33,081 nucleotides of DNA, from positions 1-33,081 of the IMG/VR virus record IMGVR_UViG_3300035670_000821, one strand, 5' to 3'. The stretch comes from a virus. The notes beneath the pieces were generated by a model. That model saw only the letters and a list, made by a program, of their open reading frames with translations. It made no database searches and was not told the origin of the DNA. Of the stretch, positions 2,516-20,786 are shown piece by piece. The position numbers and the translations under genes were made by a program. Position 1 is the stretch's first letter, and each line of letters starts with the position of its first letter.

Positions 2516-2520
2516 ATAAG

Positions 2521-2555
2521 ATAGCACGGATAGACTCCGTGCTATTTTTATTTGT
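2521..2555 (+). terminator. Rho-independent terminator after the tail-fibre operon
   Basis: A 10-bp perfect stem (2521-2530 with 2536-2545) and 5-nt loop TAGAC are followed by ATTTTTATTT. It lies 6 nt after the stop codon at 2515 and separates the fibre operon from the independently promoted cassette that follows. Confidence 0.9.
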
Positions 2556-2575
2556 AGCTATGCTAATTTTTATCA

Positions 2576-2604
2576 TTGACATTTTCTTGCTCCAATAGTA
2601 TAAT
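2576..2604 (+). promoter_or_regulatory. Consensus sigma70 promoter for the PstS-like/porin cassette
   Basis: TTGACA (2576-2581) and TATAAT (2599-2604) both match consensus exactly with a 17-bp spacer. It sits directly after the terminator and points at the gene starting at 2678. Transcription probably starts near 2611, giving a leader of about 65 nt. No phage-specific or Pho-box-like element was seen. Confidence 0.9.
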
Positions 2605-2631
2605 AGAGTAAAATAAAATTATAGTTACACT

Positions 2632-2657
2632 AACAGAAGGGATAACTTTCCGCTGTT
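2632..2657 (+). other. 5' leader stem-loop before the coiled-coil membrane protein gene
   Basis: The leader RNA can fold as AACAG (2632-2636) with CTGTT (2653-2657), and internally GGGA (2639-2642) with TTCC (2648-2651). The Shine-Dalgarno GAGG (2666-2669) lies just outside. It may stabilise the message or tune translation. Evidence is pairing only. Confidence 0.4.
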
Positions 2658-2677
2658 AACTATCCGAGGTTATAAAC

Positions 2678-3235
2678 ATGAATCTTCCACCAGAGAGTAC
2701 ATATATCTATAATAAGATCGAATCTATTGAATCTCGCCTAGAGGGTCATGTTAGCAAGATTGAGCAAAGATTAGATCAACTTGTACATATAATGCAAGCC
2801 GTAGCTGCTCTTCAAGAAAAAGAGACCCGTAACGCCGACTCTATTCGTGAGCTTAAGGTACAGTTAAAAGAATCAGTAGATGCCTTTACTAAGACTGTTA
2901 CTAGAATCCACGATAGATTAGATAATATGGAAGCCGCACAGTTGAGAGAGCACCATATATTAGAAGAGCGGGACGCAGAGCTTGAAAGAAATGTTAAGAG
3001 TGTTGATGATAAGATAGATAAATGGATTAACAGAGCTGCAGGTCTATGGATGGGTCTTTCAGCCATTATTATTATACTACAGGGCATAGGTGGGGTGTTC
3101 CTATCTTCGTTTAAAGAAGAGTATCAAATTACAAAGGTGCAAATAAATGATATTTCAAAACGTCAAACAGAACTTGAGCAGGATCATGGTCGTCTCAGCA
3201 ATACTGTTCGCCAGCTGCATCCCCCAGCTAAGTAA
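2678..3235 (+). CDS. Coiled-coil protein with one membrane segment
   Basis: A 185-aa protein. Residues about 8-120 are charged heptad-like helix (IESIESRLEGHVSKIEQRLDQ and onward). A hydrophobic segment at about 122-145 (LWMGLSAIIIILQGIGGVFL) would cross the membrane, followed by a second short coiled coil (about 150-180). The likely topology is N-terminus in, C-terminus out. It is the first gene after the promoter at 2576, with a GAGG Shine-Dalgarno. The next gene starts inside it (89-nt overlap), so the two are translationally linked. Phage proteins of this shape are often annotated as hypothetical or holin/spanin-like, but the internal position of the membrane segment is not typical of an i-spanin. 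Function unknown. Confidence 0.7.
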   Translation: MNLPPESTYIYNKIESIESRLEGHVSKIEQRLDQLVHIMQAVAALQEKETRNADSIRELKVQLKESVDAFTKTVTRIHDRLDNMEAAQLREHHILEERDAELERNVKSVDDKIDKWINRAAGLWMGLSAIIIILQGIGGVFLSSFKEEYQITKVQINDISKRQTELEQDHGRLSNTVRQLHPPAK

Positions 3236-3608
3236 TGCACAGGACACTATATCTATAGCTAATCCTGAAGTACCAGTAGCTGAACTAGAGGTTGATCTAG
3301 CTATTCAAGTATATACTGGTAAGATGGCATCCTGGCCGAACGGTCAAGCAGTAACTATAGTAGTACTACCTAGAGAGCACCCTACTTCCAGAACTTTTAT
3401 ATTTGAAAAGCTAGGTATTTCTCCGTATCAATTCTACGAATCTCTAGATATTTCTATAAATATTAGAAAGAATAACTCTGTAGTTAAAGTTCCATCAGAA
3501 TCCGAAGTAGTACGTATTGTAGCTAATAAAACAGGTAGTATAGGATATACAAAAGACTACATGTACTATAACTACAAGGATGGTTTAAAGAAAATAAGGA
3601 TATATTAA
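3147..3608 (+). CDS. Short periplasmic PstS-like (PBP-like) protein
   Basis: A 153-aa protein with a Sec signal peptide: n-region to R12, hydrophobic core IMVVSAILFASCI, probable cleavage after PQLSNA (residue 31). The mature part has landmarks of the short PstS-like family common in marine gammaproteobacteria: VYTGKMASWPNGQAVTIVVL, then TSRTFIFEKLGISP, then SESEVVRIVANKTGSIGYT. That family is about half the length of true phosphate-binding PstS, and ligand binding is not established for it. The start at 3147 has AAAGGTG 8 nt upstream; Met at 3186 is an alternative. It ends immediately before the ATG of the outer-membrane barrel gene, so the pair probably acts together in the envelope. A Cys in the hydrophobic core (FASC) is a poor lipobox. 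Probably host-derived. Confidence 0.7.
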   Translation: MIFQNVKQNLSRIMVVSAILFASCIPQLSNAQDTISIANPEVPVAELEVDLAIQVYTGKMASWPNGQAVTIVVLPREHPTSRTFIFEKLGISPYQFYESLDISINIRKNNSVVKVPSESEVVRIVANKTGSIGYTKDYMYYNYKDGLKKIRIY

Positions 3609-4766
3609 ATGAAACTATTTATAATTTTATTAATGGCATTTAATATAGCCCATGCAGGTGAACTATTTGGCTATGTGTCACAAACCGCAGTCCGCGGAAG
3701 CGGAGTAAATATTGGTGGATCTAAAGACTCCAGTTGGTCACTTGCAAAGAATGAAGTAAACTTATCCGGCGACTATCGCAAGTTTGATACTGATTTTAGA
3801 TTTACTATAGGTACTACCGATGAGCCGGGTTTAGAGGATAATCGCTTAGTAGTTAAGTATGCACTAGCAGATAGGCAGTGGGACCTAGGATACAATGCTA
3901 GTCTAGGTGTTAGAGTAGGCCGAGTGCCACATACTTTAGGTTTCTTCAATAATACACGGAATGCACCACAAGCCGGCCAGTTCATATATCTACCAGAAGG
4001 TATTTATAGAGAGCAGTTTAAATGGTTAGCAATGAGTGGTGATGGTGGTCAGGTATATTATAATAAGATATACAATAAAGACCTACAAATCGACTTTACT
4101 GGAACCTGGACAAAGGCTAACTTATCAGCCAATCGCGAAGTAGTATCTGGGCATTTTAATACCCCTACAGTAGGCGAATTTAATTATAATAAGTCCGAAG
4201 TCCGCGGTTTAACTATAGAAGGTAGGTATCAGTGTACTAAGTTCTACTACAACTGGATTAATCTTTACTTCTGGTTAAAACCTGATTTTCCTTTTTCTAC
4301 CTTTGTACAAGAAGGCAGAGCAGATACTAATGTGCACGTAGTAGGTGCTAAACAGTATATAAATCAATTTGAAGTAGGCGCGGAGTATCTTGTTGTTAAG
4401 CTACATGATAAAGTATGGCAGGATATAAGAGCCAACACTTCTAAATACGGTGATCCTACTGGCTGGGTAATTTCAGGCGTATGGCACTATAATGACAAGT
4501 TAGACCTAGCAGCTTACCACTCAGAATATTATACAGCAATCGGTGATAAGTCAGGACAGAATCAATCTACTTTTAGTATGATGCCAGCTGATTGGTTTTA
4601 TGTCAGAGCAGACAGCGTAGCAGCCAAATACAAGATAGACAATAAGTGGACACTACGTACACAATATACTAGAGGTCGAGGTGCTGAGCCTTTTCTAAAG
4701 ACCTTAAATCCTGCAGTTTCGCAAAAGTGGAACTACCTTGCAATGCAAGCAATTTATAGTTTTTAA
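3609..4766 (+). CDS. Outer-membrane beta-barrel (porin-like) protein
   Basis: A 385-aa protein starting with signal peptide MKLFIILLMAFNIAHA (cleavage near residue 16). The mature chain is a series of alternating polar/apolar strands with aromatic belts. It ends LAMQAIYSF, and the terminal Phe preceded by alternating hydrophobics is the BAM-recognised outer-membrane signal. Length and layout fit a 14-18-strand porin; the exact subtype is not recognised. AAGGA sits 8-9 nt before the ATG. It is co-transcribed with the PstS-like gene directly upstream. No terminator follows, so transcripts can run on into the structural genes. Possible roles include altering nutrient uptake or masking phage receptors; these are inferences. 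Confidence 0.75.
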   Translation: MKLFIILLMAFNIAHAGELFGYVSQTAVRGSGVNIGGSKDSSWSLAKNEVNLSGDYRKFDTDFRFTIGTTDEPGLEDNRLVVKYALADRQWDLGYNASLGVRVGRVPHTLGFFNNTRNAPQAGQFIYLPEGIYREQFKWLAMSGDGGQVYYNKIYNKDLQIDFTGTWTKANLSANREVVSGHFNTPTVGEFNYNKSEVRGLTIEGRYQCTKFYYNWINLYFWLKPDFPFSTFVQEGRADTNVHVVGAKQYINQFEVGAEYLVVKLHDKVWQDIRANTSKYGDPTGWVISGVWHYNDKLDLAAYHSEYYTAIGDKSGQNQSTFSMMPADWFYVRADSVAAKYKIDNKWTLRTQYTRGRGAEPFLKTLNPAVSQKWNYLAMQAIYSF

Positions 4767-4772
4767 TACAAT

Positions 4773-5504
4773 ATGACAATAGGAATCTATATATTATTTT
4801 TTAATAACGATAGGTCTAAAGTATATGTGGGATTATCAAAAAATATAGAAAAAAGATTTATACAACATAAATACGCTTTAAAATATAATTATGCTTCCAA
4901 AAAACTACAAGAAGCATACAATAAATTTGGTATACCTAGTATGGAAATACTATTAGAGTGTGAAGCTAATGAGTTAGAAGATAGTGAGTCTAGTGCAATA
5001 GAATTATTTGATTCTATTAATAGGGGTTATAACTCAGTATCGGGTGGATCTATAGGTGCTGGAGCATATGGGGATTTAAATGGTAAATCTATATACTCTA
5101 ATAGTGATATAATTGAAGCTTTTAATTTACTTATTGGAGATAAATACTTAACGTATAGAGATATAGAGAATATATGTGGTGTTAGTAAAGCAGTTATTAC
5201 TAATATTAAAACTGGTAGAAGCCATAAATGGTTAGAACAGTTATATCCTATAGAGTATACAAAATTAATTAGTAGTTGCAGCAGACATAGTATATCCAAT
5301 ATATTAAATAGAGATAAACATTCCGCCTTTTCTAGAGGCATCTCGTATCCTACTATATTTTCTCCGGAAGGTGTAGGATATAGTATAAAATGTCTTACAG
5401 ATTTTGCAAAAGAGCATAATCTTAGTAGCTCAGCTTTATGTAGGGTACTAAAAGGTAAGATATCACATCATAAAGGATGGAGAATATTAAATGAGCCCTG
5501 CTAA
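4773..5504 (+). CDS. GIY-YIG homing endonuclease
   Basis: A 243-aa free-standing homing endonuclease. The N-terminal GIY-YIG domain shows GIY (4-6), YVG (18-20), catalytic R28 and H32, a probable metal-binding E72 (DSESSAIELF), and the closing N-x-x-S-G-G. The middle has helix-turn-helix-like sequence (YRDIENICGVSKAVITNIKT). The C-terminal LSSSALCRVLKGKISHHKGW resembles NUMOD1-type DNA-binding modules. It is inserted between the porin and a virion gene. It has no convincing Shine-Dalgarno of its own, and its 3' end overlaps the next start by 14 nt while supplying that gene's GGATGGAG ribosome site. It is AT-richer than its neighbours. Confidence 0.9.
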   Translation: MTIGIYILFFNNDRSKVYVGLSKNIEKRFIQHKYALKYNYASKKLQEAYNKFGIPSMEILLECEANELEDSESSAIELFDSINRGYNSVSGGSIGAGAYGDLNGKSIYSNSDIIEAFNLLIGDKYLTYRDIENICGVSKAVITNIKTGRSHKWLEQLYPIEYTKLISSCSRHSISNILNRDKHSAFSRGISYPTIFSPEGVGYSIKCLTDFAKEHNLSSSALCRVLKGKISHHKGWRILNEPC

Positions 5505-6078
5505 AATATCGTTCAAAGTATACCAAGGCAGTACTTTTACAGAAGTACTGCGTTGGGAGTCTAGTAAAAAGGTGTATAAACCTATTACAGGAATTACAAA
5601 CGCCGCACCAACCGTAGTAACTGCTACTGATCATGGTGTGCCCGACGGCTGGCGTATTAAAATTACTAACGTCGGTGGAATGACTGATATTAATTCTGCT
5701 GAAGTGTATCATCAAGCTACCAAAGTTGATACAAATACAATAGAACTAAATGCAGTTAATAGTTTAGGGTATAAAGTATATACTAGCGGTGGTGTTGTAG
5801 AATATAACGAACCTATCGATTTAACCGGATATACTGCTAGAATGCAGATTCGTGAAAAGGTTGATAGTACCACTACTATTAAAGAACTAACAACTGAAAA
5901 CGGCGGAATTACATTAGATATAACTAATAGTAAAATTACCGTAACAATAAGTGCAACAGATACTGCAGCATTTACTTTTGCTAGCGCAGTATACAGCCTA
6001 GAATTAGTATCTAGTACAAACGTAGTAACCCCTCTAATTAATGGTAATATCTCTTTAGTGCGTGAGGTTACTAGATAA
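5491..6078 (+). CDS. Virion (tail/baseplate-type) structural protein
   Basis: A 195-aa protein. The N-terminus KISFKVYQGSTFTEVLRW, followed later by PIDLTGYTARMQIRE and a closing NISLVREVTR, resembles the beta-sandwich N-terminal domain of phage baseplate/receptor-binding carrier proteins (BppU-N-like). An insert (about residues 30-105) carries a separate beta-rich module. The start lies inside the preceding endonuclease gene, with GGAG 8 nt upstream. The stop overlaps the next start (TAATG). A 9-bp inverted repeat is at 5528-5551. A structural role is likely; the exact position in the virion is unknown. Confidence 0.6.
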   Translation: MSPAKISFKVYQGSTFTEVLRWESSKKVYKPITGITNAAPTVVTATDHGVPDGWRIKITNVGGMTDINSAEVYHQATKVDTNTIELNAVNSLGYKVYTSGGVVEYNEPIDLTGYTARMQIREKVDSTTTIKELTTENGGITLDITNSKITVTISATDTAAFTFASAVYSLELVSSTNVVTPLINGNISLVREVTR

Positions 6079-6482
6079 TGGACATTATTGTAGCACCTAT
6101 AACAGAAGCGATTGCTGTTGAATCTAATAAGACGGAATCAGTAGTTACAGGTTCTACAGTAAATGCTGTTACTAACCAAGAGATATATAATGTAGTAATA
6201 GAAGTAGAAGCTTCTAATACTATCGTGGCAGGCCAGCCTGGTCCTGCAGGACCAACCGGCCTAAGCGAGGATTCCGTGGCATATGCTAGACAGACAGACT
6301 TTGCAACAGAGAGTCTAATATATAAGGGGGAGGCTGAGGCCGGTACCTCATTTAGTACTGCTGCATGGAGAATAAGACGAATAGTTCTCTCAGAAGATGG
6401 CGATGTGTCAGAAACCTGGGCAGATGGTGATTCAAATTTTGATAATGTATGGGATGATAGAGCCTCACTATCTTACAGTTAA
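6078..6482 (+). CDS. Virion-associated protein with short collagen-like motif
   Basis: A 134-aa protein. It has a beta-rich N-terminus, then a short collagen-like GQPGPAGPTG (about residues 53-62). A conserved-looking module follows: YARQTDFATESLIYKGEAEA, then TAAWRIRRIVLSEDGDVSET. That C-terminal module recurs in many phage structural proteins and likely mediates trimer or fibre contacts. It overlaps the preceding stop by 1 nt. Confidence 0.55.
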   Translation: MDIIVAPITEAIAVESNKTESVVTGSTVNAVTNQEIYNVVIEVEASNTIVAGQPGPAGPTGLSEDSVAYARQTDFATESLIYKGEAEAGTSFSTAAWRIRRIVLSEDGDVSETWADGDSNFDNVWDDRASLSYS

Positions 6483-6494
6483 GGAAGGGTATAT

Positions 6495-6824
6495 ATGCCT
6501 GTAATATTAAATACGCCGATAATACCGGCAGTACCAGAGTATGATAAGGTACATTTAGAACATCTAATTGTAACACTAGAAAAAACTAACTACGCTAAAA
6601 CCCAAATTACTGCTAAGTTACGTCCATACTACCAAGATAGTAATGGTAATAAAATATTTTCTACAGATGCTGTAGATATACTTATCGAAGATGCTGAGCA
6701 GTGGATTACACAATTAGCACTGCAGGGTGATATGCGTGGTGTAGAAGCTAACGATCATATCAAAGCAATAGTTGCCTTTTTAGTAGAGACTAAAACTAAT
6801 TTTGGCACCACAACTATAAGCTAA
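6495..6824 (+). CDS. Small virion-cluster protein, unknown function
   Basis: A 109-aa protein, not recognised. It is mixed alpha/beta with a charged helical centre (DAVDILIEDAEQWITQLAL) and no signal peptide or membrane segment. It has a strong Shine-Dalgarno (AAGGAAGGG) and lies among tail structural genes, which is the only clue to its role. Confidence 0.6.
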   Translation: MPVILNTPIIPAVPEYDKVHLEHLIVTLEKTNYAKTQITAKLRPYYQDSNGNKIFSTDAVDILIEDAEQWITQLALQGDMRGVEANDHIKAIVAFLVETKTNFGTTTIS

Positions 6825-6834
6825 GGGGGATTAA

Positions 6835-8304
6835 ATGGCAACACCAACCCTTACCCCTAGCTTCACTATACTATCGGCATGTGATGCTACTACTGGCTGG
6901 GTGGGTACTAATGCTACAGATACTGAAGTATATAAGCAGAATGGTACAGCAGTTTCTTCAACCCTTCGTACAACTGGTCTTAATCAAAAATATTTAACAG
7001 TTTCCTCCACTAATTTAAGTAATACACATCTTAGACTATGGTTTATGTATGCTTCCGTAGGTTTCTTAGAGACTAAAGCGGCCGGCGGAATAAGAATGAT
7101 GGTATATGATGGCACTAATACTGGTTACTGGTATTTAGGTGGTAAAGATACTTACGGAGGCGGATGGACCCTACTAACTGTAGATACTGCTAGAGCTTTT
7201 GATAGTGGTTCCTGTAATTTAAATGCTGTAACTCGTGTTGGTTTTGCTCTACAATTAACTGGTGCTCCTCGTAATGCTGTTAATACTTGGTTCGATTATT
7301 TTGTATATGGTAATGGTATTAAAATTACCGGCGGTACTAGTGGGGATAAAGTTACTTGGAATGATATAGCTGCGGCTGATCTAACCGCAGGCTATGGGGC
7401 AGTCAACAAAGTAAACTCTGTTTATTTTATTAATACTAATTTAATATTTGGAGACAGTACTACTAGTAGTACTACTAATTGCTATTTTTCTGATACTAAC
7501 CAATTAATAGTATTTGAGGACCAACCAGTTAGTGCCACTTTATATAAAATAGAAGCTACCGGTACATCTACAAATACTACATCATTTGAATTAACTGATT
7601 CCGTTATTAAATCAGCCTCCACCAGTACTAGAGTACAATTGGATTTTACTAATGCTAATTTTGATACTTTAGTATTTACAGGGAATAGTATAGTTAATGC
7701 TGATACTACTAAGTTTAAGGCTGGCCAATCTATATCTGGATGTGGATGGATAGGGTGCAATCAAGTACAGATAAGTACTGCCTCTCTTACTAACTCCTAT
7801 ATTAATAATAGTACAGTGTCTACCGGTGCGTTGTTATTACCAGCAGGTAATACACATACTATAACAGGAACACAGTTTAATAATAACTCAAGAGCAATAG
7901 AAGTATCTTCAGCTGGTACGTATAGTATGAACTCACTATTATTTAGTGGTAATACTTATGATATTAATAATACTTCTGGTGGTTCCGTAACTATTAATGC
8001 TACTAACGGTGCTAATCCTTCTACATATCTAGGTAGTGTTACAATTAACAATACAAAGTATAAGAAATTTACAGGTATACCAACAGGAGCAGAAGTACGA
8101 GTAAGACAAGGAGCCTACACATTAGGTTACCAGGATAATATAACATCTGGTGAGTACCAGTTTAACTATACTGCAACTAATGGAGTAGCTACGGTTAATG
8201 TAAACTTGGCCGGATATGTATTTGAGCCAATTACAGTAACATTAAACGCAACCGATCAGGATATTCAGGTTGTATATTCCCCAGACCCTAGTTATGAAGC
8301 ATAA
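6835..8304 (+). CDS. Large beta-helix-like virion structural protein
   Basis: A 489-aa protein. Residues about 1-170 look like a carbohydrate-binding-type beta sandwich (Trp/Gly-rich, TGYWYLGG). Residues about 190-400 are Asn/Ser/Thr-rich short strands with repeated N-(T/N)-(S/T) turns, the look of a right-handed parallel beta-helix. The C-terminal about 80 residues form a small beta domain ending PDPSYEA; a related ending (ADPSYTAA) closes the next gene. AAGGGG Shine-Dalgarno. Likely a tail appendage or fibre-adapter protein. No enzymatic motif seen. Confidence 0.6.
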   Translation: MATPTLTPSFTILSACDATTGWVGTNATDTEVYKQNGTAVSSTLRTTGLNQKYLTVSSTNLSNTHLRLWFMYASVGFLETKAAGGIRMMVYDGTNTGYWYLGGKDTYGGGWTLLTVDTARAFDSGSCNLNAVTRVGFALQLTGAPRNAVNTWFDYFVYGNGIKITGGTSGDKVTWNDIAAADLTAGYGAVNKVNSVYFINTNLIFGDSTTSSTTNCYFSDTNQLIVFEDQPVSATLYKIEATGTSTNTTSFELTDSVIKSASTSTRVQLDFTNANFDTLVFTGNSIVNADTTKFKAGQSISGCGWIGCNQVQISTASLTNSYINNSTVSTGALLLPAGNTHTITGTQFNNNSRAIEVSSAGTYSMNSLLFSGNTYDINNTSGGSVTINATNGANPSTYLGSVTINNTKYKKFTGIPTGAEVRVRQGAYTLGYQDNITSGEYQFNYTATNGVATVNVNLAGYVFEPITVTLNATDQDIQVVYSPDPSYEA

Positions 8305-8314
8305 GGTATAAATT

Positions 8315-9934
8315 ATGGCAAAAATTACAAGCAAGGCTAGTCTAGTATCTTTACAGGCTAGCAATAACAATCTTGTTCTTCACGTTGTGGATAAACAAGG
8401 AACAGATATAGGTATTACCAAATCTGGAGATACCTATACTATAGCATCTTCTACTACTAATTTTACTAACTCTGCTACTGTTAATGGTATTACTAAGCGC
8501 GGTATTGTAGTAGGCGATCTAATTAAATTATCACATACATCTAGTGCTTCTAACGAAGGTATTCAGATGTACGTTACTACAGCGACCTCTAACTCTTTAA
8601 CCTGTACAACTACTGGTGTAACTCAGACCAGTGGGCAGGCGGGTGCTACAGAAGCAGCGGGTTCTGATATTAATATTACTGCATTCAAGAAGACATATCA
8701 ATTCCTAGAAGTTGGTTCACTAAATTTCGTAGATGGCGTACAAGGTATTATTCTAGCCTCTAAACTAGTTGATATGTGGGATGCCGGGGATCTAGATATA
8801 TATGATCGTGTATTTGCGTCTATTGAACCTCGTGCTAAGTCTATTGCATCTATTAACGGGTGGGAGCCCCACGATACTTCAACACTAAATGCTATTCGTG
8901 ATACAGCCCTAGAGATTCGCCCCAGTGCTTCGGCGGCAGCTACTAAGATTTATGCACTATTCCGTTCAACGGGCAATGCACATGAATCTACCGACCAATT
9001 AACATTCTGGTACGGTGGAGATGCTGCGCTAACAGCTCCGAATAATTTTGTTATGACAGGATATGCCAATCAGCTAGCTCTTATTTATGATTATAATAAC
9101 GGCACACCCGTAGATAAGCGTGGTACCTGGTATACGCGTTTAGCTATTGAATATAAAACAATTATTATGGAACAGCACAGTGTAAACTATGCTGAAATTT
9201 ATCCTATTTCTGCAGCCAATGGCATAGATCCTAAATTAACACTTGATGATGATACTGATTTTACATCTGGTGCTTTTTCTAATATTTTATACTACAAAGA
9301 TATCGATGGAATATACTCACAATCTGTAGATGGTACTCCATATGACTTTGCCGGATATATAGATGCTGATCTACAAACTAATGAGTATGTACATCACAAG
9401 ATACATTGGTTACTACGTCAATCGACTAATATTAATAGTGACGGTACTGGTGCTGTTATGCGCGGTGATAAACAGTGGCCAATTACTTCCTTCTCTGGTG
9501 ACGTTTTCACAGTTAAATCGGGCCTTCTAGATTATAAGACTTCTCAACGTAACTATTTAAGACTAATTGATACTGGTGGCAATACACGTATGTGGCCAAC
9601 AGTATATACTTTATCTATTAAAGGCACTGGATTATCATTAGGTGGTACTTTCTCGGTTATCCATGAAGATAGTTTTGGGGCATCAGGAGCAGTTTATTTA
9701 AAGAATGACGTAGGCACAGATCAGAAAGATCAAACTATTACATCAGATACTGGCATTACTGTAGCCTATTCTACCTATACAACAGGTGGTCATACTGCAA
9801 ATACCCCCCTAGCACTACGTGTAACATATAACCGCCCAGGTTACATTGAACCAGACTCTGTTAGCCTAATTATGGATGGTGATGAAACGGTTACAATTCA
9901 GCCAACAGCAGATCCTTCATACACTGCGGCTTAA
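8315..9934 (+). CDS. Large virion structural protein
   Basis: A 539-aa protein, all-beta in character with Thr/Ser/Asn-rich strands and no signal, coiled coil or catalytic motif seen. The centre (about residues 130-330) is aromatic-rich. The end RPGYIEPDSVSLIMDG to ADPSYTAA resembles the C-terminal module of the gene before it, so both may attach to the same partner. It lies in an uninterrupted structural operon. Probably a tail or appendage component. Confidence 0.6.
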   Translation: MAKITSKASLVSLQASNNNLVLHVVDKQGTDIGITKSGDTYTIASSTTNFTNSATVNGITKRGIVVGDLIKLSHTSSASNEGIQMYVTTATSNSLTCTTTGVTQTSGQAGATEAAGSDINITAFKKTYQFLEVGSLNFVDGVQGIILASKLVDMWDAGDLDIYDRVFASIEPRAKSIASINGWEPHDTSTLNAIRDTALEIRPSASAAATKIYALFRSTGNAHESTDQLTFWYGGDAALTAPNNFVMTGYANQLALIYDYNNGTPVDKRGTWYTRLAIEYKTIIMEQHSVNYAEIYPISAANGIDPKLTLDDDTDFTSGAFSNILYYKDIDGIYSQSVDGTPYDFAGYIDADLQTNEYVHHKIHWLLRQSTNINSDGTGAVMRGDKQWPITSFSGDVFTVKSGLLDYKTSQRNYLRLIDTGGNTRMWPTVYTLSIKGTGLSLGGTFSVIHEDSFGASGAVYLKNDVGTDQKDQTITSDTGITVAYSTYTTGGHTANTPLALRVTYNRPGYIEPDSVSLIMDGDETVTIQPTADPSYTAA

Positions 9935-9947
9935 TAAGGAGTAATTT

Positions 9948-11288
9948 ATGGCTGTTGATGGATTCGTTAGAGTACCACCAGATAGTACTGGTAAAAAGCT
10001 CTACACTCAAGAGCACACTGTAGGTGCCGATACAGTACAAGCACAAGTGGTACATATCGGCAGCGCTGTAAATCCTAGCAATCTACAGATAGTAGATGAA
10101 AGAGGTCAAGCTAATGTACGCTTTGCCGAAGGTAGTCCAAGTATGGACGCCTTCGGTAATCTCAGAGTAGGCGAAGGCTCCGTTCTAGGAGCTTATGAAT
10201 ATACTCTAGATGATATGGCAGATCTATTCCTTGATGAAATAGGTACAGGAGGCTCACTGACGTGGGCTTCTCCTGAAACTGTTATGTCATGTAACATGGC
10301 TGCTACAGCTTCGGTAGTACGTACCACAAATAGGTATCATTACTATCAGCCAGGAGTATCTAATTTAGCTATTATGACTCTAGCTAACGGTGATGTTGGA
10401 AGATTCAATAATGTACGCCGTTGGGGATATTTTGATGCCAATAATGGTATCTTCTTTGAGCTTAATGGTACCACGTTATACGCTGTACTGCGTAATGCCG
10501 GAGTAGATACCAAGGTAGCTAGTACGTCATGGAATCAAGATCCTTTAGATGGAACAGGCGTTTCCGGTATGGATCTAGATATAACTAAAGCTAATTTCTA
10601 CTTTATTGATTTTGCTTGGTTAGGCGTTGGTGAGGTACGATTCGGCGTTCTAGGCCCTAAGGGCGAACGCAATATATGTCACATATTCCAGAACCCTAAC
10701 AATAATGAAGGTGCCTATATGGAAACAGGCACGCTACCATTACGTTGGGAAAACTTTAATACTGGAATTACTGGTGGTACTTCTGATCTACGTTTAATCT
10801 GTGCCGCGGTATATGCTCAATCCAAGATTGATTATACTTACTGGAGATTCTGCGATATTTCTCGTATGACTCCTGTTACATTAACTGATAGTACACCTAA
10901 ACCTGTACTATCTATGAGAGTTAAGCCAGGTACTAGAGTAGGTATATACCCTGAATGCATTAATACTTTCATTGCTGGTGGCGCTATAAAGATGTCAATA
11001 GTAGATGACGCTGTTTTAACTGGTGCAACTTGGGGTATTACTGGAGCTAGCGATGCTCAGGGTGATATAGGGGCTACTGCAGTTTCTGGTGGTTCAGAGT
11101 TTCACTCGAACTGGCAAAATGAAGGTGCCCATCACTGGACAGTGACTGATATCTACGAAACAAATGATGAGGGGTATCATAGACTAGCGGATGATTCAGG
11201 TTCTTACACTTTCACTCTAGTTGCAACAAAATTATCCGGTACATCAGTAACAGTAGCTGCGGAACTTTGCTATAAAGAATTGAGGTAA
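9948..11288 (+). CDS. Virion structural protein
   Basis: A 446-aa protein. The N-terminal stretch VRVPPDSTGKKLYTQEHTV followed later by GSPSMDAFGNLRVGEGSVLG, then a lectin-like beta-sandwich rich in Trp/Tyr/Phe, is typical of large phage virion proteins found in marine phages. No enzymatic residues are recognisable. AAGGAG Shine-Dalgarno. A compact hairpin lies at 10645-10670 (6-bp outer and 4-bp inner stem). The role in the tail or head is not determined. Confidence 0.6.
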   Translation: MAVDGFVRVPPDSTGKKLYTQEHTVGADTVQAQVVHIGSAVNPSNLQIVDERGQANVRFAEGSPSMDAFGNLRVGEGSVLGAYEYTLDDMADLFLDEIGTGGSLTWASPETVMSCNMAATASVVRTTNRYHYYQPGVSNLAIMTLANGDVGRFNNVRRWGYFDANNGIFFELNGTTLYAVLRNAGVDTKVASTSWNQDPLDGTGVSGMDLDITKANFYFIDFAWLGVGEVRFGVLGPKGERNICHIFQNPNNNEGAYMETGTLPLRWENFNTGITGGTSDLRLICAAVYAQSKIDYTYWRFCDISRMTPVTLTDSTPKPVLSMRVKPGTRVGIYPECINTFIAGGAIKMSIVDDAVLTGATWGITGASDAQGDIGATAVSGGSEFHSNWQNEGAHHWTVTDIYETNDEGYHRLADDSGSYTFTLVATKLSGTSVTVAAELCYKELR

Positions 11289-11292
11289 TCAT

Positions 11293-11838
11293 ATGGCTGC
11301 TCTTATCTGGGGTTCTTGGGGAGAAGAGTGGGCACTACAAGAACGAGTATCCTTTGAAGGGGATACTCGTTCTATAGTAGTTCACGATAATGTCACAGAA
11401 TTAGATATTCGTGCTCACGTGTATTCTGCCTGGGTAAGATGGAGGTCTAGAGGTAACGACCACTACTACGAGGCGTTTAGACGTGAAGGTCTAGCTCCCG
11501 TTCCAGGCGGCTTTACTGGAGATACCTACTTCCTATATAATGATTGGAAGTTATATTTAGATATTAGAAAAGTGCGAGTTACTGGCGTTCTTTTTTCAGA
11601 TGATTTTGAAACCGCGTTCTATGATGCTGATACTGGTTTAGCAGTATATCCAATGAAGGTATCTTCAGTTGTTAATACTGTACAGGTGACTACTACAGTA
11701 ACAACTCAAGCAGACCCTGTTGAAATAGCTAACGCAATATTAAATGCTCAAATAGGCACTTCAAGACCTACAGGATCTCTAGGAGAGTTCTTGATTAAGA
11801 AGGTTCTTACTATTGCCAAGTTTATAGGATTAAAGTAA
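11293..11838 (+). CDS. Virion-cluster protein, unknown function
   Basis: A 181-aa protein. The N-terminal half is beta-rich with many Trp/Tyr/Phe (SAWVRWRSRGNDHYYEAFRR); the C-terminal half turns helical (VEIANAILNAQIG, then IKKVLTIAKFIGLK). It begins 4 nt after the preceding stop. A perfect 13-bp inverted repeat (11340-11373) lies about 48 nt inside the gene. Probably a minor structural protein, from context. Confidence 0.6.
   Translation: MAALIWGSWGEEWALQERVSFEGDTRSIVVHDNVTELDIRAHVYSAWVRWRSRGNDHYYEAFRREGLAPVPGGFTGDTYFLYNDWKLYLDIRKVRVTGVLFSDDFETAFYDADTGLAVYPMKVSSVVNTVQVTTTVTTQADPVEIANAILNAQIGTSRPTGSLGEFLIKKVLTIAKFIGLK
11340..11373. repeat. Perfect 13-bp inverted repeat with 8-nt loop inside a coding region
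   Basis: Arms 11340-11352 and 11361-11373 are fully complementary; the loop is TTTGAAGG. It lies about 48 nt after the ATG at 11293. The RNA hairpin would be stable, and no T-tract follows. Regulation or processing is possible but unproven. Confidence 0.8.
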
Positions 11839-11847
11839 CTTAGTATA

Positions 11848-12036
11848 ATGAATACAATAAATACAATCCATGGTGAAATGGATGAAAACCTTCTAGAAAA
11901 GAGGGAAGGTCACATAGATAATGATGTGGAATACACTACTTGGGTAGAGTACTGGTACAATAATGAACTAGTACATAGATCTGCACATGTAACCGTTAAA
12001 GAACTTCCGCCACTATTTGGCGAATTAGGAGAATAA
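11848..12036 (+). CDS. Small acidic protein, unknown function
   Basis: A 62-aa protein, acidic, with a beta-hairpin-like centre (VEYTTWVEYWYNNELVHRSA). It has a weak Shine-Dalgarno and is followed 3 nt later by the next gene. Position in the structural operon is the only hint of role. Confidence 0.55.
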   Translation: MNTINTIHGEMDENLLEKREGHIDNDVEYTTWVEYWYNNELVHRSAHVTVKELPPLFGELGE

Positions 12037-12039
12037 AAT

Positions 12040-12525
12040 ATGGCTAGTACACAAGCAATGTGCACCTCATTTAAGAGAGAGATTCTACAAGGGTATCATC
12101 AACTAGGTGTATCCGCTGGTACAATCACCCTTACTTCCCGTACATCCCTTACAGCCCCAGTTAACGATGCTATAAAAGTTGCATTATATACAAATACTGC
12201 AACCAATGGCGAAGCTACCACAGCTTATACAGCTACTAACGAAATATCCTCTGCGAACTATACAGCCGGTGGATCTACAATTACTAGCTGGCAGAACCCA
12301 GCTAATACTGGTACTACTGTATATGCAGGACCTACATCAGCGTCCACAGTATCTTGGAATAACATTACAGCAGCAAGTATCCAATCTTGCTTATTATATA
12401 ATGATACCCAGGGTGATAGAGCTATTAGTGTCCATACTTTTACGGATCAGAATATTACAAACGGTACCTTTACTATTACATTCCCAACTAATGACGCTAC
12501 TACTGGTCTAATTCGCTTGGTATAA
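12040..12525 (+). CDS. Virion structural protein (all-beta)
   Basis: A 161-aa protein. The pattern MCTSFKREILQGYHQLG near the N-terminus, followed later by DAIKVALYTNTAT and TNEISSANYTAGG, recurs in phage structural proteins. The hydrophobic strand order ends in SVHTFTDQNITNGTFTITFP. GGAG Shine-Dalgarno 8 nt upstream. Likely a tail or decoration component. An overlapping +1-frame ORF at 12179-12511 is a shadow. Confidence 0.65.
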   Translation: MASTQAMCTSFKREILQGYHQLGVSAGTITLTSRTSLTAPVNDAIKVALYTNTATNGEATTAYTATNEISSANYTAGGSTITSWQNPANTGTTVYAGPTSASTVSWNNITAASIQSCLLYNDTQGDRAISVHTFTDQNITNGTFTITFPTNDATTGLIRLV

Positions 12526-12529
12526 TATC

Positions 12530-12742
12530 ATGAGCGAAGTTGAGTTCAACATGCTAAAAGAGCAGGTTGCTGAACTACGACGTAAAATGAAATTAGTTAG
12601 CGACTGGCACGATACTGTTCGCTCTCCTTTCTATAAGAGGATATGGTGGTGGCTCCAGGGATATAGAGTAAATTCTCTAGGTACGTGGTATAAAGCTTCA
12701 TGGAATAAAGCGGCTGGCGAGAAATATAATAAGGAGTTCTAA
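12530..12742 (+). CDS. Small basic helical protein, unknown function
   Basis: A 70-aa protein. An N-terminal coiled-coil-like helix (EFNMLKEQVAELRRKMKLV) is followed by a Trp-rich basic region (KRIWWWLQGYRVNSLGTWYKAS). No signal or clear membrane span. Its stop is immediately followed by the ATG of the next gene, whose AAGGAG Shine-Dalgarno is inside this gene. Not recognised. Confidence 0.55.
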   Translation: MSEVEFNMLKEQVAELRRKMKLVSDWHDTVRSPFYKRIWWWLQGYRVNSLGTWYKASWNKAAGEKYNKEF

Positions 12743-14140
12743 ATGCCTACAACCTTATACCTTCGCAGTACCAGTACTGCGGTCGGTACAAACTCCTTAT
12801 TATTAAGTACTACACCAGGTGCTAGTACTACGACCACAGCAGTAGTAGCTACTACTGCTGGTGGAACAAATATACAGTGGACCAACACTTCCGGTGGTTC
12901 AGCATTAGAATGGGTTACACTACCTTTTTCTAGCGATATAACAGTATCTGGAACAATATCTGTATCTTTGCAGGCAATGGAAGACAACATGTCTGCAAAT
13001 ATAGGTGCCAGGGCTTATATATTTAAGAGGTCTCAAGAAGGTACTTATACTCAAATAGGTACAGGTGATGATGGCGTTGAGTTTGGTACATCCAATACTC
13101 AGATGGACTGGACCCTTACACCTACAAGCACAGATTTTGTAAAGGGTGATAGATTAGTAGTACGTATGTACATTACTAACGTCGGTACAATGAATACCGG
13201 TTATTTAGGTACAATGTACTATGAAGGTGCTGCGGCCAGTGCGTTTGATAGTTATATATCTACTACAGAAACTCTTACATTTGGTGCAGATAGTGATAAG
13301 TATGTAAGTATTACTGGCGTGGAAGAGACTAATGAAGTAGGCTCAGTTACACGTACTCAGTCAGGTAATCAAACACTATCTAATGTCAGCGCCACGGTTC
13401 AAGTAAATAATATAGCTGTAGAAAATATTATTGCCAGAGGCATATCTACTGTATCATCTACCGGTTCAGTAGGCTCAGTTACACGTACTCAGTCAGGTAA
13501 TCAAACACTATCTACCGTTAGTTCTATAGGTAATGTAGGCTCTGTAGCTAGAAGGCAGGATGGTAGCCAATCCATTACTTCCGTATCGACCACTGCTAAT
13601 ATAGGATCGGTACTTAGATCTATATCTGGTGGTTCAATATTATCCACAGTATTTACTACTGGTAATGTAGGTTCAGTTACTACTAGTCAAGCAGTAATTA
13701 AGAATCTTACAACAGTATTTTCTACGGGTAACGTTGGTTCAGTAGCAAGATCTCAGTCAGGTAATAGAACGTTATCAAGTGTAAGTTCTACTGGTAACGT
13801 AGGTTCAGTAAGACCAGGTAAATTAGTTACATTAAGTAGTACTACTGCTACAGGTAGTGTAGGTACCGTCGGAGCACTTAGTTTTGGTAAGGTAGATCTA
13901 ACAGGCGTATCAGCTACTGCATCAGTGGGTTCTTTGAAAATATGGGTACCAAGTGCTTTATTTTACTGGACTACAAAATTTGTACCATATCTAACTACTT
14001 TTACGAGAACACCGACATTTAGTTCAACAGATCATTTATCGGTATTTGAAAGCCCTGATAAGTATCAACTATTAGAACAAGATAGAGATATTTTATTCTT
14101 CTCTACCAAACCTAATCATTATAATAACACAGGTGGATAA
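12743..14140 (+). CDS. Repeat-containing virion surface/fibre protein
   Basis: A 465-aa protein. Residues about 1-185 form a beta-sandwich-like head (strands around SGTISVSLQAMEDNMS and RLVVRMYITNVGT). Residues about 192-397 are a tandem array of units of roughly 22 aa with core G-S-V-x-x-x-Q-S-G-x-x-x-L-S-x-V-x-S-T-G-N-V. The C-terminal 65 residues are a distinct aromatic module. Two repeats are identical at DNA level over 47 bp, which allows repeat-number change by recombination. Early in the gene lie a hairpin (12763-12782) and a 24-bp palindrome (12837-12860). Likely an extended stalk or adhesin-like appendage. Confidence 0.65.
   Translation: MPTTLYLRSTSTAVGTNSLLLSTTPGASTTTTAVVATTAGGTNIQWTNTSGGSALEWVTLPFSSDITVSGTISVSLQAMEDNMSANIGARAYIFKRSQEGTYTQIGTGDDGVEFGTSNTQMDWTLTPTSTDFVKGDRLVVRMYITNVGTMNTGYLGTMYYEGAAASAFDSYISTTETLTFGADSDKYVSITGVEETNEVGSVTRTQSGNQTLSNVSATVQVNNIAVENIIARGISTVSSTGSVGSVTRTQSGNQTLSTVSSIGNVGSVARRQDGSQSITSVSTTANIGSVLRSISGGSILSTVFTTGNVGSVTTSQAVIKNLTTVFSTGNVGSVARSQSGNRTLSSVSSTGNVGSVRPGKLVTLSSTTATGSVGTVGALSFGKVDLTGVSATASVGSLKIWVPSALFYWTTKFVPYLTTFTRTPTFSSTDHLSVFESPDKYQLLEQDRDILFFSTKPNHYNNTGG
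12837..12860. repeat. Perfect 24-bp palindrome inside a coding region
   Basis: Centre between 12848 and 12849, with twelve base pairs each side and no loop. It codes for Ala/Val/Thr codons in a low-complexity stretch, so codon repetition may contribute. It is preceded by a 7-bp hairpin with loop CCAG at 12764-12781. Confidence 0.75.
13316..13932 (+). repeat. Tandem 22-aa coding repeat array
   Basis: About eight or nine degenerate copies encoding G-S-V-x-R-x-Q-S-G followed by TLS-x-V-S-S-T-G-N-V. The stretches 13336-13382 and 13468-13514 are identical over 47 bp at an offset of 132 bp (44 codons, two units). Other copies have diverged. This points to recent internal duplication or gene conversion. 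Confidence 0.85.
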
Positions 14141-14142
14141 AT

Positions 14143-14433
14143 ATGACGATTTTAGGCGTTATTAATAAGCAACCCAGTGAAGTACTGGACTTCGACATTA
14201 GTTATGCACCTGTTTTACAGGGCAGAAATGATACACTTAGTTCAGCAACTGGATTTTCAACCCCTCCAGGCATTACCATAGTTAGTGCAACTGTAAATGC
14301 TTCTAGTCATGTTACACAGACTAAAATTAGTGGCGGTACTGATGGGTTAACATATAAAGTAACAATACAGACTTCAACTACTGGAGGCTTATTGTACGAG
14401 GACGAAGTTACTGTAATTGTGGAGGAAGTATGA
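14143..14433 (+). CDS. Ig-like phage fibre/tail adaptor-type protein
   Basis: A 96-aa single beta-sandwich. The pattern EVLDFDISYAPVL, later STPPGITIVSATVNASSH, then KISGGTDGLTYKVTIQT, ending EDEVTVIVEEV, matches the small Ig-like proteins annotated as fibre-tail adaptors in other phages. The next gene overlaps it by 4 nt. Probable head-tail or tail-fibre connector; exact position inferred. Confidence 0.6.
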   Translation: MTILGVINKQPSEVLDFDISYAPVLQGRNDTLSSATGFSTPPGITIVSATVNASSHVTQTKISGGTDGLTYKVTIQTSTTGGLLYEDEVTVIVEEV

Positions 14434-14738
14434 TTTTAGTATCCAAACCCGGCGAATCTCTCCCTAAAGTGGAGAAGCGCGCCGAAGAAACAATTACGTA
14501 CTCTCTAGATATTGAAAAAATACTAGTACCTAATGAAGTGGCAGTTAGTATTAAAGGGGTAACCTCTAAGCTAAATATCGGTAAATACCGTACTAGAAGA
14601 GGTACTTCCATAGAGTTAACTGTCCTTCCTCACGATATAGGAGCACCACAGTATATGGACTATACTGTTAGTGTATTATTTGAAACAAATATGGGTAATA
14701 CCCGTTCGGCAGTATTTAATATAAGAGTATATAAATAA
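14430..14738 (+). CDS. Small beta-sandwich virion protein
   Basis: A 102-aa protein with alternating beta pattern (EVAVSIKGVTSKLNI, YMDYTVSVLFETN, AVFNIRVYK). It pairs with the adaptor-like gene upstream (4-nt overlap) and probably has a similar Ig-like fold. GGAGG Shine-Dalgarno 6-7 nt before the ATG. An 8-bp hairpin (14648-14668) lies in its 3' half. Role inferred from context. Confidence 0.55.
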   Translation: MILVSKPGESLPKVEKRAEETITYSLDIEKILVPNEVAVSIKGVTSKLNIGKYRTRRGTSIELTVLPHDIGAPQYMDYTVSVLFETNMGNTRSAVFNIRVYK

Positions 14739-14857
14739 TGGCCGAAATAGATGAAGTAATTATTACGTCTGAAAATTCAGCAATAGTTATTTCTTTACCT
14801 ACTGAGTTATTTTTCATCGTCAGACTAGAAGAGCAAGAATACTTAACAAAGGAATAA
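14738..14857 (+). CDS. 39-aa small protein
   Basis: An ORF of 39 codons starting in a TAATG overlap with the preceding stop and ending 1 nt before the holin-like gene. The product is MAEIDEVIITSENSAIVISL followed by an acidic end. It is a short beta-like peptide with no recognised motif. Tight coupling on both sides supports real translation; without it there would be a 120-nt gap in an otherwise packed operon. Confidence 0.55.
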   Translation: MAEIDEVIITSENSAIVISLPTELFFIVRLEEQEYLTKE

Positions 14858-14858
14858 A

Positions 14859-15419
14859 ATGGCCCTACCACTAGCCTTAATAGGCACCCTAATAAAGGCA
14901 GCACCTTCTATTATTGAATTCTTCGGTAATAAGAAACAAGCTGACGTTGCGGAAAAAGTAATAGATATTGCCAAACAAGTCACAGGCGAGACAGAACCTG
15001 AGAAAGCAGTAGAAGCTATATCAGCAAATCCTCAGTTAGCTCTAGACTTTGAAAAAGCTGTAATGGATAACAAGCTAGAACTACGTAAGCTAGATATTGA
15101 AGAGCAGATCATATATGTAAAAGATATTCAAGATGCTCGTAAATATAGAGATGGACGTACTTTCTGGCTAGGTGTTGGTATCTTAGCCATCTTCTGTATT
15201 GCTGTATGTTTAGTCCTAATAGGTGCTTACTTTATTATTGTAGGTACTTTAGTTATAGATGCGGCAATCTTCGCAGCTCTAACAGGTATGATAGGTACTT
15301 TAGTTGGATATACTGCCGCAAATGCCCAGGCCGTAGTTAATTATTTCTTTGGATCCAGTCATGGTAGTATGATTAAATCCGATGAATTAGCAGACTCTGT
15401 AAAGAAGATTGGTAAATGA
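14859..15419 (+). CDS. Holin-like membrane protein
   Basis: A 186-aa protein. Two adjacent hydrophobic segments (about residues 102-126 and 129-150) follow a soluble amphipathic N-terminal region rich in Lys/Glu. An N-terminal hydrophobic stretch (LPLALIGTLIKAA) could be a third, which would fit the 3-TM holin group. The downstream endolysin overlaps it by 4 nt (ATGA), the classical holin-endolysin order. Expected role: permeabilise the inner membrane at lysis. AAAGGA Shine-Dalgarno. Assignment rests on topology and neighbour. Confidence 0.65.
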   Translation: MALPLALIGTLIKAAPSIIEFFGNKKQADVAEKVIDIAKQVTGETEPEKAVEAISANPQLALDFEKAVMDNKLELRKLDIEEQIIYVKDIQDARKYRDGRTFWLGVGILAIFCIAVCLVLIGAYFIIVGTLVIDAAIFAALTGMIGTLVGYTAANAQAVVNYFFGSSHGSMIKSDELADSVKKIGK

Positions 15420-15922
15420 GCAGAGACCTAAATCTACTACATCCTAAGGTTAAAGAACAGGCTCTAGAACTACAGAAACGTGCTAGAGATGTTCATGGCC
15501 TTAGCGTAATATTCACCCAAACTGTGCGAACTGAGGCCGAACAATCGGCCTTATATGCACAAGGGAGGCAGCCTTTAGCAGCCGTAAACGCCTTAAGAAA
15601 GGTAGCTGCACTAGGGCCTATCTCTAAACAGGAAAATACCAAAATAGTTACAAAAGCTAAGACGGCCAAAGATAGTATGCATTACTATGGTTTAGCTTTT
15701 GATATAGCTATTACTAGTCCAAGTGGAAAGGATATAATCTGGAACTCTAAATCAGATTGGAATAGTGACGGAGCCAATGACTGGAGTCAGGTAGGTAAAC
15801 TAGCTGATGATATTGGCTTGGAATGGGGAGGTAACTGGTCATCAATGCCAGATCCCCCACATTTTCAAAATCGTTTTGGGCTGACTTTAGCTGAACTAAA
15901 GTCTGGGAAAAAACCTGCATAA
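15416..15922 (+). CDS. M15-family endolysin (L-Ala-D-Glu / D-Ala-D-Ala-type peptidase)
   Basis: A 168-aa Zn peptidase that cleaves peptidoglycan peptides. The M15 signature is present: TQTVRTEAEQSALYAQGR (residues 34-51), then H89-x(6)-D96 (HYYGLAFDIA) and the third ligand H149 (PPHFQ). Length matches T5-type Lys and CwlK-like enzymes. There is no signal peptide, so release depends on the holin upstream. Two hairpins lie in the coding region: 15533-15552 and 15883-15903. High confidence in family; exact bond specificity not determined. Confidence 0.9.
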   Translation: MSRDLNLLHPKVKEQALELQKRARDVHGLSVIFTQTVRTEAEQSALYAQGRQPLAAVNALRKVAALGPISKQENTKIVTKAKTAKDSMHYYGLAFDIAITSPSGKDIIWNSKSDWNSDGANDWSQVGKLADDIGLEWGGNWSSMPDPPHFQNRFGLTLAELKSGKKPA

Positions 15923-15930
15923 GGGCATTT

Positions 15931-16626
15931 ATGTCTACATCCAAGAAGGCTCGCAAGAGCGCTCCTCAACAAACTACTAGCCAGATTAAGATTAATGGTT
16001 TCGAACCTATTATTGCAAAAAACTACGCTCAAGGTCAATATTTAGAATCTATACGTACTAGACAAATAACGTTTGGTATAGGCTCTGCAGGGACAGGTAA
16101 AACTTATATAGCTACTGCATATGCTGCAGAGCAGCTATACTATAAAAAAGTTGATAAAGTCATACTAACTAGACCAGCGGTAGAGGCTGCTGGAGAAAGT
16201 CTTGGCTTCTTACCGGGGGAATTAATTGAAGGCAAATTACTGCCTTATATGGTACCTTATTTAGAAACTTTCAGTGATCTACTAGGTCAGTCATTTCTAG
16301 CTTATTGTCTAAAGGTAGGATATATAGAACCTGTACCATTAGCTTTCATGCGCGGTAGAAGCTTTAAAAATTGTTTAATATTAGCAGATGAGATGCAGAG
16401 TGCTACATCCCTACAAATGCAACTCCTACTTACTCGTATAGGTGAGAACAGTAAACTAATTATTAATGGCGATATAGCTCAGAGAGATGATAAAAACGTA
16501 AACGGCTTAGAAGATGCTACTAATAGACTAGGCGGTTTACAGGAAGTTGATATAGTTAGATTTCATGATAATGACTGTGTACGTTCTGGATTATGTAAAA
16601 AAGTACTTCAGGCTTATTCATCCTAG
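15931..16626 (+). CDS. phoH: PhoH-like P-loop ATPase
   Basis: A 231-aa single-domain PhoH. Walker A is GSAGTGKT (51-58), followed by TRPAVEAAGESLGFLPGE (80-97). Walker B is LILADE (149-154), and the sensor-like NGDIAQRD follows. The family is related to SF1 helicases; its phage role is uncertain, with RNA metabolism or phosphate response proposed. It is the last plus-strand gene; the stop is followed at once by the bidirectional terminator. AAGGG Shine-Dalgarno. Confidence 0.92.
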   Translation: MSTSKKARKSAPQQTTSQIKINGFEPIIAKNYAQGQYLESIRTRQITFGIGSAGTGKTYIATAYAAEQLYYKKVDKVILTRPAVEAAGESLGFLPGELIEGKLLPYMVPYLETFSDLLGQSFLAYCLKVGYIEPVPLAFMRGRSFKNCLILADEMQSATSLQMQLLLTRIGENSKLIINGDIAQRDDKNVNGLEDATNRLGGLQEVDIVRFHDNDCVRSGLCKKVLQAYSS

Positions 16627-16672
16627 TAAACAAAAAGCCCATACAGATTAATCTGTATGGGCTTTTTGTTTA
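16627..16672. terminator. Bidirectional terminator between converging operons (46-bp perfect palindrome)
   Basis: Perfect palindrome centred between 16649 and 16650. GCCCATACAGATT and its complement are flanked by AAAAA and TTTTT, so each strand forms a stem followed by TTTTTGTTT. It starts right after the phoH stop and contains the stop codon of the minus-strand endonuclease. Confidence 0.95.
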
Positions 16673-17533
16673 TATTTTTACCCACTGCATAAAATGGGTA
16701 TCGGTACCTTTTAAAAACTTAGAGAAAGCTTTTCTTTTTCCCTCTATATTATGCTCTCTACAAAAACCTAATACATTATTAAAAGAGTATATCTCGTTGG
16801 TACTTGTATCCTTTAACGTATGTACTATATGTTTATTAGGAGTATAGGGCACCGGATACTTCAGTACCCAGTTACTTGCGTATTTATACCTACCAGTAAC
16901 CATCCCCGATACTGTGGATTTAGGAATACTGTACTTAGCAGAGAACTCCATAATAGAAGATATTATTTCTTCCTCTCCCGTATCTGTATTTATACAAACT
17001 ATATTTAGTTTACGTCTATTATTTACCATATTCTCTAATTTAGCATACTCTTCAGGGTACTCTAAACTAAGCCAAGTTTTATGTGATACTCCAGTAGATA
17101 TATGCTCTACTATTTGTTCGGATACGCCCCACTTGTCTGATAGGTCTTTGTAAGATAATTTACTATTTAATAAATCAAAAAATACTCCTAAATACTTTTC
17201 TTTATCATACTTTGCTCTTCCATTACTCTCTCCACTAACCCCAATACCTCCTCCAGTAGCTCCACCATCTCTAGAATTAAACCCATTATTAATACTATCA
17301 AATATTTCAATAGCTTCTTTCTCATACCTATCTAAGTCACTTGAACTACATTCACAAATAACTTCGATTTCCGGTAGTCCAAAAGACTGAAAAGCTTCTT
17401 GTAGTTTAACAGGGGATTTCCCTGTTCTCAAGCTATGTAGGTGGTTTCTAAACCTAGCCTCGATATCTACCGAAAGTCCAACGTATACTTTAGTAGTACC
17501 TTTAAATTTTAATATATAAATCCCGCAAGTCAT
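16670..17533 (-). CDS. GIY-YIG homing endonuclease
   Basis: A 287-aa protein from the ATG at 17533; a TTG at 17545 is less likely because GGAG sits 7 nt before the ATG and family members start MTCGIYIL. GIY (4-6), YVG (17-19), the Arg/His of EARFRNH, and Glu in RYEKEAIEIFDSIN give an intact nuclease core. Two or three helix-turn-helix/NUMOD-like modules follow (YKDLSDKWGVSEQIVEHIST; FSAKYSIPKSTVSGMVTG). It has its own consensus promoter and lies alone between the ribonucleotide reductase hairpin and the convergent terminator. Likely targets a nearby gene such as nrdJ or phoH. Confidence 0.9.
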   Translation of the reverse strand: MTCGIYILKFKGTTKVYVGLSVDIEARFRNHLHSLRTGKSPVKLQEAFQSFGLPEIEVICECSSSDLDRYEKEAIEIFDSINNGFNSRDGGATGGGIGVSGESNGRAKYDKEKYLGVFFDLLNSKLSYKDLSDKWGVSEQIVEHISTGVSHKTWLSLEYPEEYAKLENMVNNRRKLNIVCINTDTGEEEIISSIMEFSAKYSIPKSTVSGMVTGRYKYASNWVLKYPVPYTPNKHIVHTLKDTSTNEIYSFNNVLGFCREHNIEGKRKAFSKFLKGTDTHFMQWVKI

Positions 17534-17556
17534 AATATTCTCCAAGTAATATGAAT

Positions 17557-20647: not shown

Positions 20648-20786
20648 TTTCTTCTTTCTTAGGGTTAATAGTTCTTACCATTACTGCAGCGCATTGATTA
20701 CAACGTACATAAGGAGTAGCGGCAATTTTATGCTCCACTACTTTAGTTGCATTGCACTTTGGACAGTGATAGTTATAGATTCCCAT
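20619..20786 (-). CDS. 55-aa zinc-ribbon protein
   Basis: A short ORF of 55 codons starting MGIYNYHCPKCNATK. Two Cys pairs, C8-x2-C11 and C29-x2-C32, form a zinc-ribbon layout; the C-terminus is basic then charged. Its ATG overlaps the stop of the upstream endonuclease (TAATG), and its end overlaps the dUTPase start by 29 nt. The endonuclease appears to be inserted between it and the flap-endonuclease gene. Function unknown; nucleic-acid or protein binding is plausible. Confidence 0.7.
   Translation of the reverse strand: MGIYNYHCPKCNATKVVEHKIAATPYVRCNQCAAVMVRTINPKKEENGRDKNIRP

Follow-up and report, generated by a model that had tools for sequence, protein, structure and literature searches.

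A probable phage-captured copy of a bacterial pair of binding protein and porin genes that looks like a sensory input unit

Phages change the metabolism and the surface receptors of their hosts, and envelope genes found in a phage genome raise the question of what their products would do in the infected cell. One such locus is contained in the IMG/VR record IMGVR_UViG_3300035670_000821, which was analysed over its complete length of 33,081 bases (hereafter the window). The original prediction for this locus had described a terminator, an exact-consensus promoter and genes for a coiled-coil membrane protein, a PstS-like protein with signal peptide and a porin-like barrel ending in Phe, and had interpreted them as a host-derived cassette that remodels the envelope of the infected cell, for example for nutrient uptake or receptor masking. 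Where do these genes come from, and which role is compatible with their features?

The window is a phage fragment, with a tail-fibre-like gene cut by the left end and a DNA polymerase gene cut by the right end. Tail and structural proteins, endolysin and PhoH are encoded in the plus strand half, and ribonucleotide reductase, dUTPase, SbcCD-like proteins, a helicase, SSB and the DNA polymerase in the minus strand half. The closest relatives of the polymerase belong to large Vibrio and Proteus phages, e.g. pVp-1 (about 51%), and one structural protein resembles counterparts in cyanophages, HMO-2011 and DSL-LC04. No close relative of the phage was found; a distant one (L189) has the structural genes of the segment 6835-11838 and lacks the cassette. 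Elsewhere in the window, a small, weakly cupin-like protein is encoded among tail genes (1326-1607), and a weakly SAM methyltransferase-like gene lies beside an SbcC-like gene (24142-24702).

All predicted elements of the locus, i.e. the terminator, the promoter and the three genes, each of them intact, were recovered (Table 1).

Table 1. Features of the cassette and of genes referred to in the text (positions in the window)
Feature	Position	Strand	Evidence or remark
Intrinsic terminator-like hairpin closing the upstream unit	2518-2548	+	13-bp stem, 5-base loop, T-rich tail
Sigma-70 promoter, TTGACA-17-TATAAT	2576-2604	+	Exact consensus, 12/12
5′ leader without significant RNA structure	2605-2677	+	Fold z-score 0.15
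First gene of the unit; 185-aa coiled-coil protein, single TM segment	2678-3235	+	Hydropathy maximum around residues 124-145
Half-size PBP of PstS fold, exported; family of bacterial PBP-porin pairs	3147-3608	+	Best phmmer E-value against host genes 2.7e-18; Foldseek matches to PstS
Partner of the PBP: outer-membrane porin, 16 strands predicted, C-terminal Phe	3609-4766	+	Best phmmer E-value against host porins 2.1e-19
GIY-YIG homing endonuclease	4773-5504	+	Starts 6 nt past the porin; Pfam GIY-YIG 1.8e-6, PHROG homing endonuclease 1.5e-12
Endolysin	15416-15922		
phoH-like gene	15931-16626		

Exact promoter matches occur three times in the window, at 2576 (+), 17585 (-) and 23415 (-), compared with 0.04 expected from shuffles of the whole 33-kb sequence. 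The two matches on the minus strand lie a short distance 5′ of genes for free-standing homing endonucleases (16670-17545 and 22495-23361), and exact consensus promoters of this phage therefore seem to be a mark of accessory genes. An RNA element in the 5′ leader was rejected on the basis of its fold z-score. Downstream of the porin gene, no terminator between genes was detected on the plus strand from 4766 to 16626, the first one being found at 16627, and a terminator closing the cassette was accordingly rejected. Up to 14738, the genes 3′ of the porin remain tightly spaced (-14 to +13 nt), so that the unit served by this promoter may extend to near 16627. Thus, the cassette does have the promoter that had been ascribed to it, but this promoter is not private and is predicted to read into a unit of 14 kb. 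Compared with a typical moron, a promoter of its own and a bacterial origin are present, and a terminator of its own after the cassette is missing.

The cassette had been described as placed between tail genes, but the direct right-hand neighbour of the porin is the GIY-YIG endonuclease gene. With a GC content of 0.292, the lowest among the genes compared, this gene is an outlier in composition; it is a possible vehicle of mobility and stands outside the pair. GIY-YIG homing endonuclease genes are found four times within the 33 kb (4773-5504, 16670-17545, 20786-21448 and 26498-27193).

The first gene of the unit encodes the coiled-coil membrane protein that had been predicted, with a single hydrophobic segment, and overlaps the PstS-like gene by 89 nt. 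Its product gave just weak coiled-coil matches in Pfam and PHROGs, and no convincing relatives in phage records or IMG/VR. Assignments as spanin or holin, or as a reduced chemotaxis receptor, were rejected, as the matches were biased (best E-value 0.003, with the bias amounting to about half of the score). This protein may be a co-factor of the pair or the product of an unrelated accessory gene.

For the second gene, structure prediction and Foldseek bore out the predicted PstS-like fold, in a protein of about half the size of PstS. The frame is intact (153 aa), with a Shine-Dalgarno sequence AAAGGTG and a hydrophobic N-terminal segment. All 18 PDB matches of the AlphaFold model (pLDDT 86.7, pTM 0.73) at E<=0.001 were phosphate-binding or PstS proteins (best E-value 1.2e-5), with TM-scores to PstS of about 0.55-0.6 by query and about 0.35 by target. 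Likewise, the profile of the bacterial PBP family finds PstS chains (4exl, E-value 2.8e-7). Beyond the shared fold, the phage protein differs from PstS of the Pst transporter, and from cyanophage PstS, in several respects: it lacks the two-lobe architecture of roughly 250-370 aa, and the SGT phosphate motif was found neither in the alignment with PstS chains nor anywhere in the PBP family. It adjoins a porin gene, and no pstCAB genes were seen in the window. The most conserved motif of the PBP family itself is W...SGxGxxP, and this signature is lost in the phage copy, where W, S, G, G and P are replaced at positions 100, 106, 107, 109 and 112; altogether, 9 of 19 strongly conserved family columns are retained.

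The third gene likewise has an intact frame, preceded by the Shine-Dalgarno sequence TAAGGA, and encodes a signal peptide as judged by eye. As had been proposed, the product is predicted to be a porin-like barrel ending in Phe. Its AlphaFold model has 16 strands and is of only moderate confidence (pLDDT 70.7, pTM 0.72), notably at residues 114-133. Foldseek with this model returned 247 matches at E<=1e-3, among them the porins VhChip (2.1e-11, the best E-value) and OprP (4.4e-10). The general porin features, i.e. signal peptide, 16-strand barrel and C-terminal aromatic residue, are thus all found, on the basis of the model and of inspection by eye. With general 16-strand porins (VhChip, OmpT, OmpF, OprP) the phage protein shares the predicted strand number and the C-terminal Phe, at Foldseek E-values from 1e-8 to 2e-11, whereas in sequence it matches neither PDB porins nor any Pfam porin family. 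Among the strongly conserved columns of its own family, 19 of 33 are retained.

Relatives of both proteins were found in bacteria, where they are encoded side by side. In a tblastn search the PstS-like protein had one plasmid relative, from Halomonas (E-value 6e-4), and the adjoining gene was a relative of the window porin. With the window porin as query, 32 of 369 gammaproteobacterial genomes gave matches at E<=1e-3; in all 33 loci a PstS-like gene was located directly 5′ of the porin gene on the same strand, and the PstS-like protein of the window matched each of the 33. Both genes were likewise present at 80/80 loci in Halomonadaceae. When a second family was searched with the PstS-like profile, PBP preceded porin in the best 30 of 30 loci, and the weaker matches represent a lineage II, in which the order is usually porin then PBP. 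The phage pair, a short exported protein of PstS fold adjoining a porin gene on the same strand, has the composition of this bacterial unit. Together with the phmmer matches, these counts support a bacterial origin of the genes as a pair, as the host-derived part of the original prediction required.

What accompanies the pair in bacteria is informative about its role. In 16 of 20 wide loci and in 68 of 74 Halomonadaceae loci, the next gene 3′, in the same orientation, encodes a transmembrane GGDEF(-EAL) c-di-GMP protein; the Halomonas transducer has the architecture dCache_3-PAS-GGDEF-EAL, and GGDEF-EAL, hybrid histidine kinase and MCP architectures occur beside other pairs. At one locus (L128, 1803-6008) the place of the GGDEF protein downstream of the pair is taken by a hybrid histidine kinase (PAS, GAF, HisKA, HATPase, REC, Hpt). 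Close to several lineage II genes, HAMP-MCP chemotaxis receptors or a GGDEF protein are encoded, and in one bacterial genome the porin-PBP pair is present in three tandem copies (L183, 1605-6656), a sign of expansion of the input unit. Signalling proteins, and no pst transporter genes, were found beside the host copies inspected. Since the pair adjoins varied signalling genes, it looks like a modular sensory input unit. A literature search for PstS-like/porin/GGDEF operons under those words found none.

The closest studied system is probably VpvABC of V. cholerae, which consists of the porin VpvA, the periplasmic binding protein VpvB and the diguanylate cyclase VpvC (PMC12456836). In many gamma- and betaproteobacteria vpvAB is present without vpvC and has been proposed to be a conserved sensing unit (PMC12456836); an adjacent transducer is therefore common but not universal. 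The likeness, compared at the level of description, consists in a porin and a small periplasmic binding protein encoded next to each other, whereas in the phage the order is PBP then porin, a transducer is missing and the genes reside in a virus. The pair, which had been suggested as a possible new auxiliary system, accordingly belongs to a type of bacterial sensory input unit that is already known (VpvAB-like), a relationship that the earlier reading of the locus had missed. More directly comparable are the gammaproteobacterial operons of PBP, porin and dCache/PAS/GGDEF/EAL genes (e.g. Halomonas, L004-L083). The phage genes are homologous to them and have the same order and strand, but the third gene is lacking, identity over the alignments is only about 16-28%, and the PBP has lost the family motif. 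No signalling transducer (GGDEF/EAL, MCP or histidine kinase) was found in the window, nor a GGDEF motif in any of its ORFs.

Altogether, the segment 3147-4766 is very probably a divergent, phage-captured copy of the bacterial PBP-porin input unit in the gene order of lineage I. Phylogenetic trees placed the two phage proteins next to lineage I and not within lineage II. Their branches are long (2.2 and 2.7, whereas tip medians are about 0.5), and the lineage I placement has node support of 0.73 for the PBP and 0.10 for the porin, so that the tree position is only roughly known; phmmer favoured lineage I for both proteins. Both genes resemble the phage in GC and GC3, so that the capture must be old or the genes have adapted, and a recent transfer was rejected on the same grounds. 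The search for the gene pair in other genomes, which the original prediction had proposed, thus succeeded in bacteria but produced no second phage among 50,697 phage records. IMG/VR was covered by motif and close-relative scans, which may miss distant copies (the profile alignments A1 and A2 contain no conserved stretch of 7-10 columns), and no second carrier was found there; L137 and L138 from two motif scans were chance matches. Among the phage records and the IMG/VR scans, the pair is hence carried by one phage only.

The reading that we favour, with a probability of about one half, is that the exported pair engages or competes at an envelope sensor of the host. Both proteins would be exported during infection, and the porin would insert into the outer membrane, where it may supply solute access or replace a host porin. 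The altered PBP would then engage the sensory domain of a c-di-GMP protein of the host, or compete there, by which the sensor would be uncoupled from its normal ligand and surface behaviour under c-di-GMP control would be biased. Given the low identity and the lost family residues, the original interaction of the PBP may be gone. A bolder version, namely that the captured and altered input unit, perhaps with the coiled-coil TM protein, takes control of a c-di-GMP or chemotaxis envelope sensor of the host, is tentative, and we would sooner bet against it. If it were true, the host would be reprogrammed by a false sensor input outside the inner membrane, not by an enzyme or a transcription regulator.

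Other explanations place the function in one of the two proteins, or in neither. The porin could be the working part, replacing or masking a host receptor (superinfection exclusion) or restoring permeability, with the PBP as passenger or chaperone-like partner. Lc, a porin encoded by the lambdoid phage PA-2, alters receptor display. According to BFVD, OmpC-like barrels occur in uncultured phages, and marine viruses carry glnK-amtB-ompL cassettes (PMC8115048), which resemble the present locus as virus-captured cassettes of several host genes, one of them for a porin, with a predicted promoter but differ in being an ammonium transporter cassette of inferred Bacteroidetes origin, with a terminator, another porin and no PBP. 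In addition, the porin has retained a larger share of its conserved columns than the PBP. The two genes have, however, been kept together over a long divergence, as at every porin locus found in bacteria, which argues for a joint function, and we regard the explanation by the porin alone as doubtful. A cassette drifting without present role, as the remnant of a captured host operon, would account for the very long branches, the loss of conserved PBP residues and the failure to find other viral carriers. Yet the frames are intact, Shine-Dalgarno sites and signal peptides are present, the folds are predicted and the C-terminal Phe is retained, and this compact phage has a consensus promoter in front of the genes. 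Their phage-like composition means that they have probably been kept for long, and we consider such decay unlikely.

Cyanophage PstS is thought to raise the phosphate supply for replication, and the PstS fold as well as the phoH-like gene of the window would fit a nutrient cassette in which porin and phosphate-binding protein serve phage replication in the same way. This is decidedly improbable for a half-size PBP without N-terminal lobe, from a family that lacks SGT throughout and whose inspected host copies adjoin signalling genes and not pst transporters; true PstS phosphate uptake, one of the roles originally envisaged, was rejected on size, motif and neighbours. Least probable of all, and hardly credible in our view, are parts of the virion or of the lysis machinery. 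The genes do lie in the late structural half, and the overlap of a coiled-coil TM gene with an exported gene recalls a spanin-like lysis pair, or barrel and PBP might be tail proteins. Against this stand the signal peptides, the porin fold with its terminal Phe and the clear homology to bacterial envelope genes, which support the initial assignment to the envelope; moreover, the endolysin is encoded elsewhere, and no significant spanin or holin match was obtained.

The capture of a periplasmic sensing unit consisting of PBP and porin was seen in no other phage record searched. If the pair works as proposed in the favoured reading, engaging or competing at a host envelope sensor, it would provide a viral route to c-di-GMP, and hence to biofilm formation or motility, that starts from the envelope. 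The finding also bears on the role of VpvAB-like porins and binding proteins that occur without a diguanylate cyclase, and for this question the phage pair, which is devoid of the SGxG motif, may serve as a natural, ready-made mutant.
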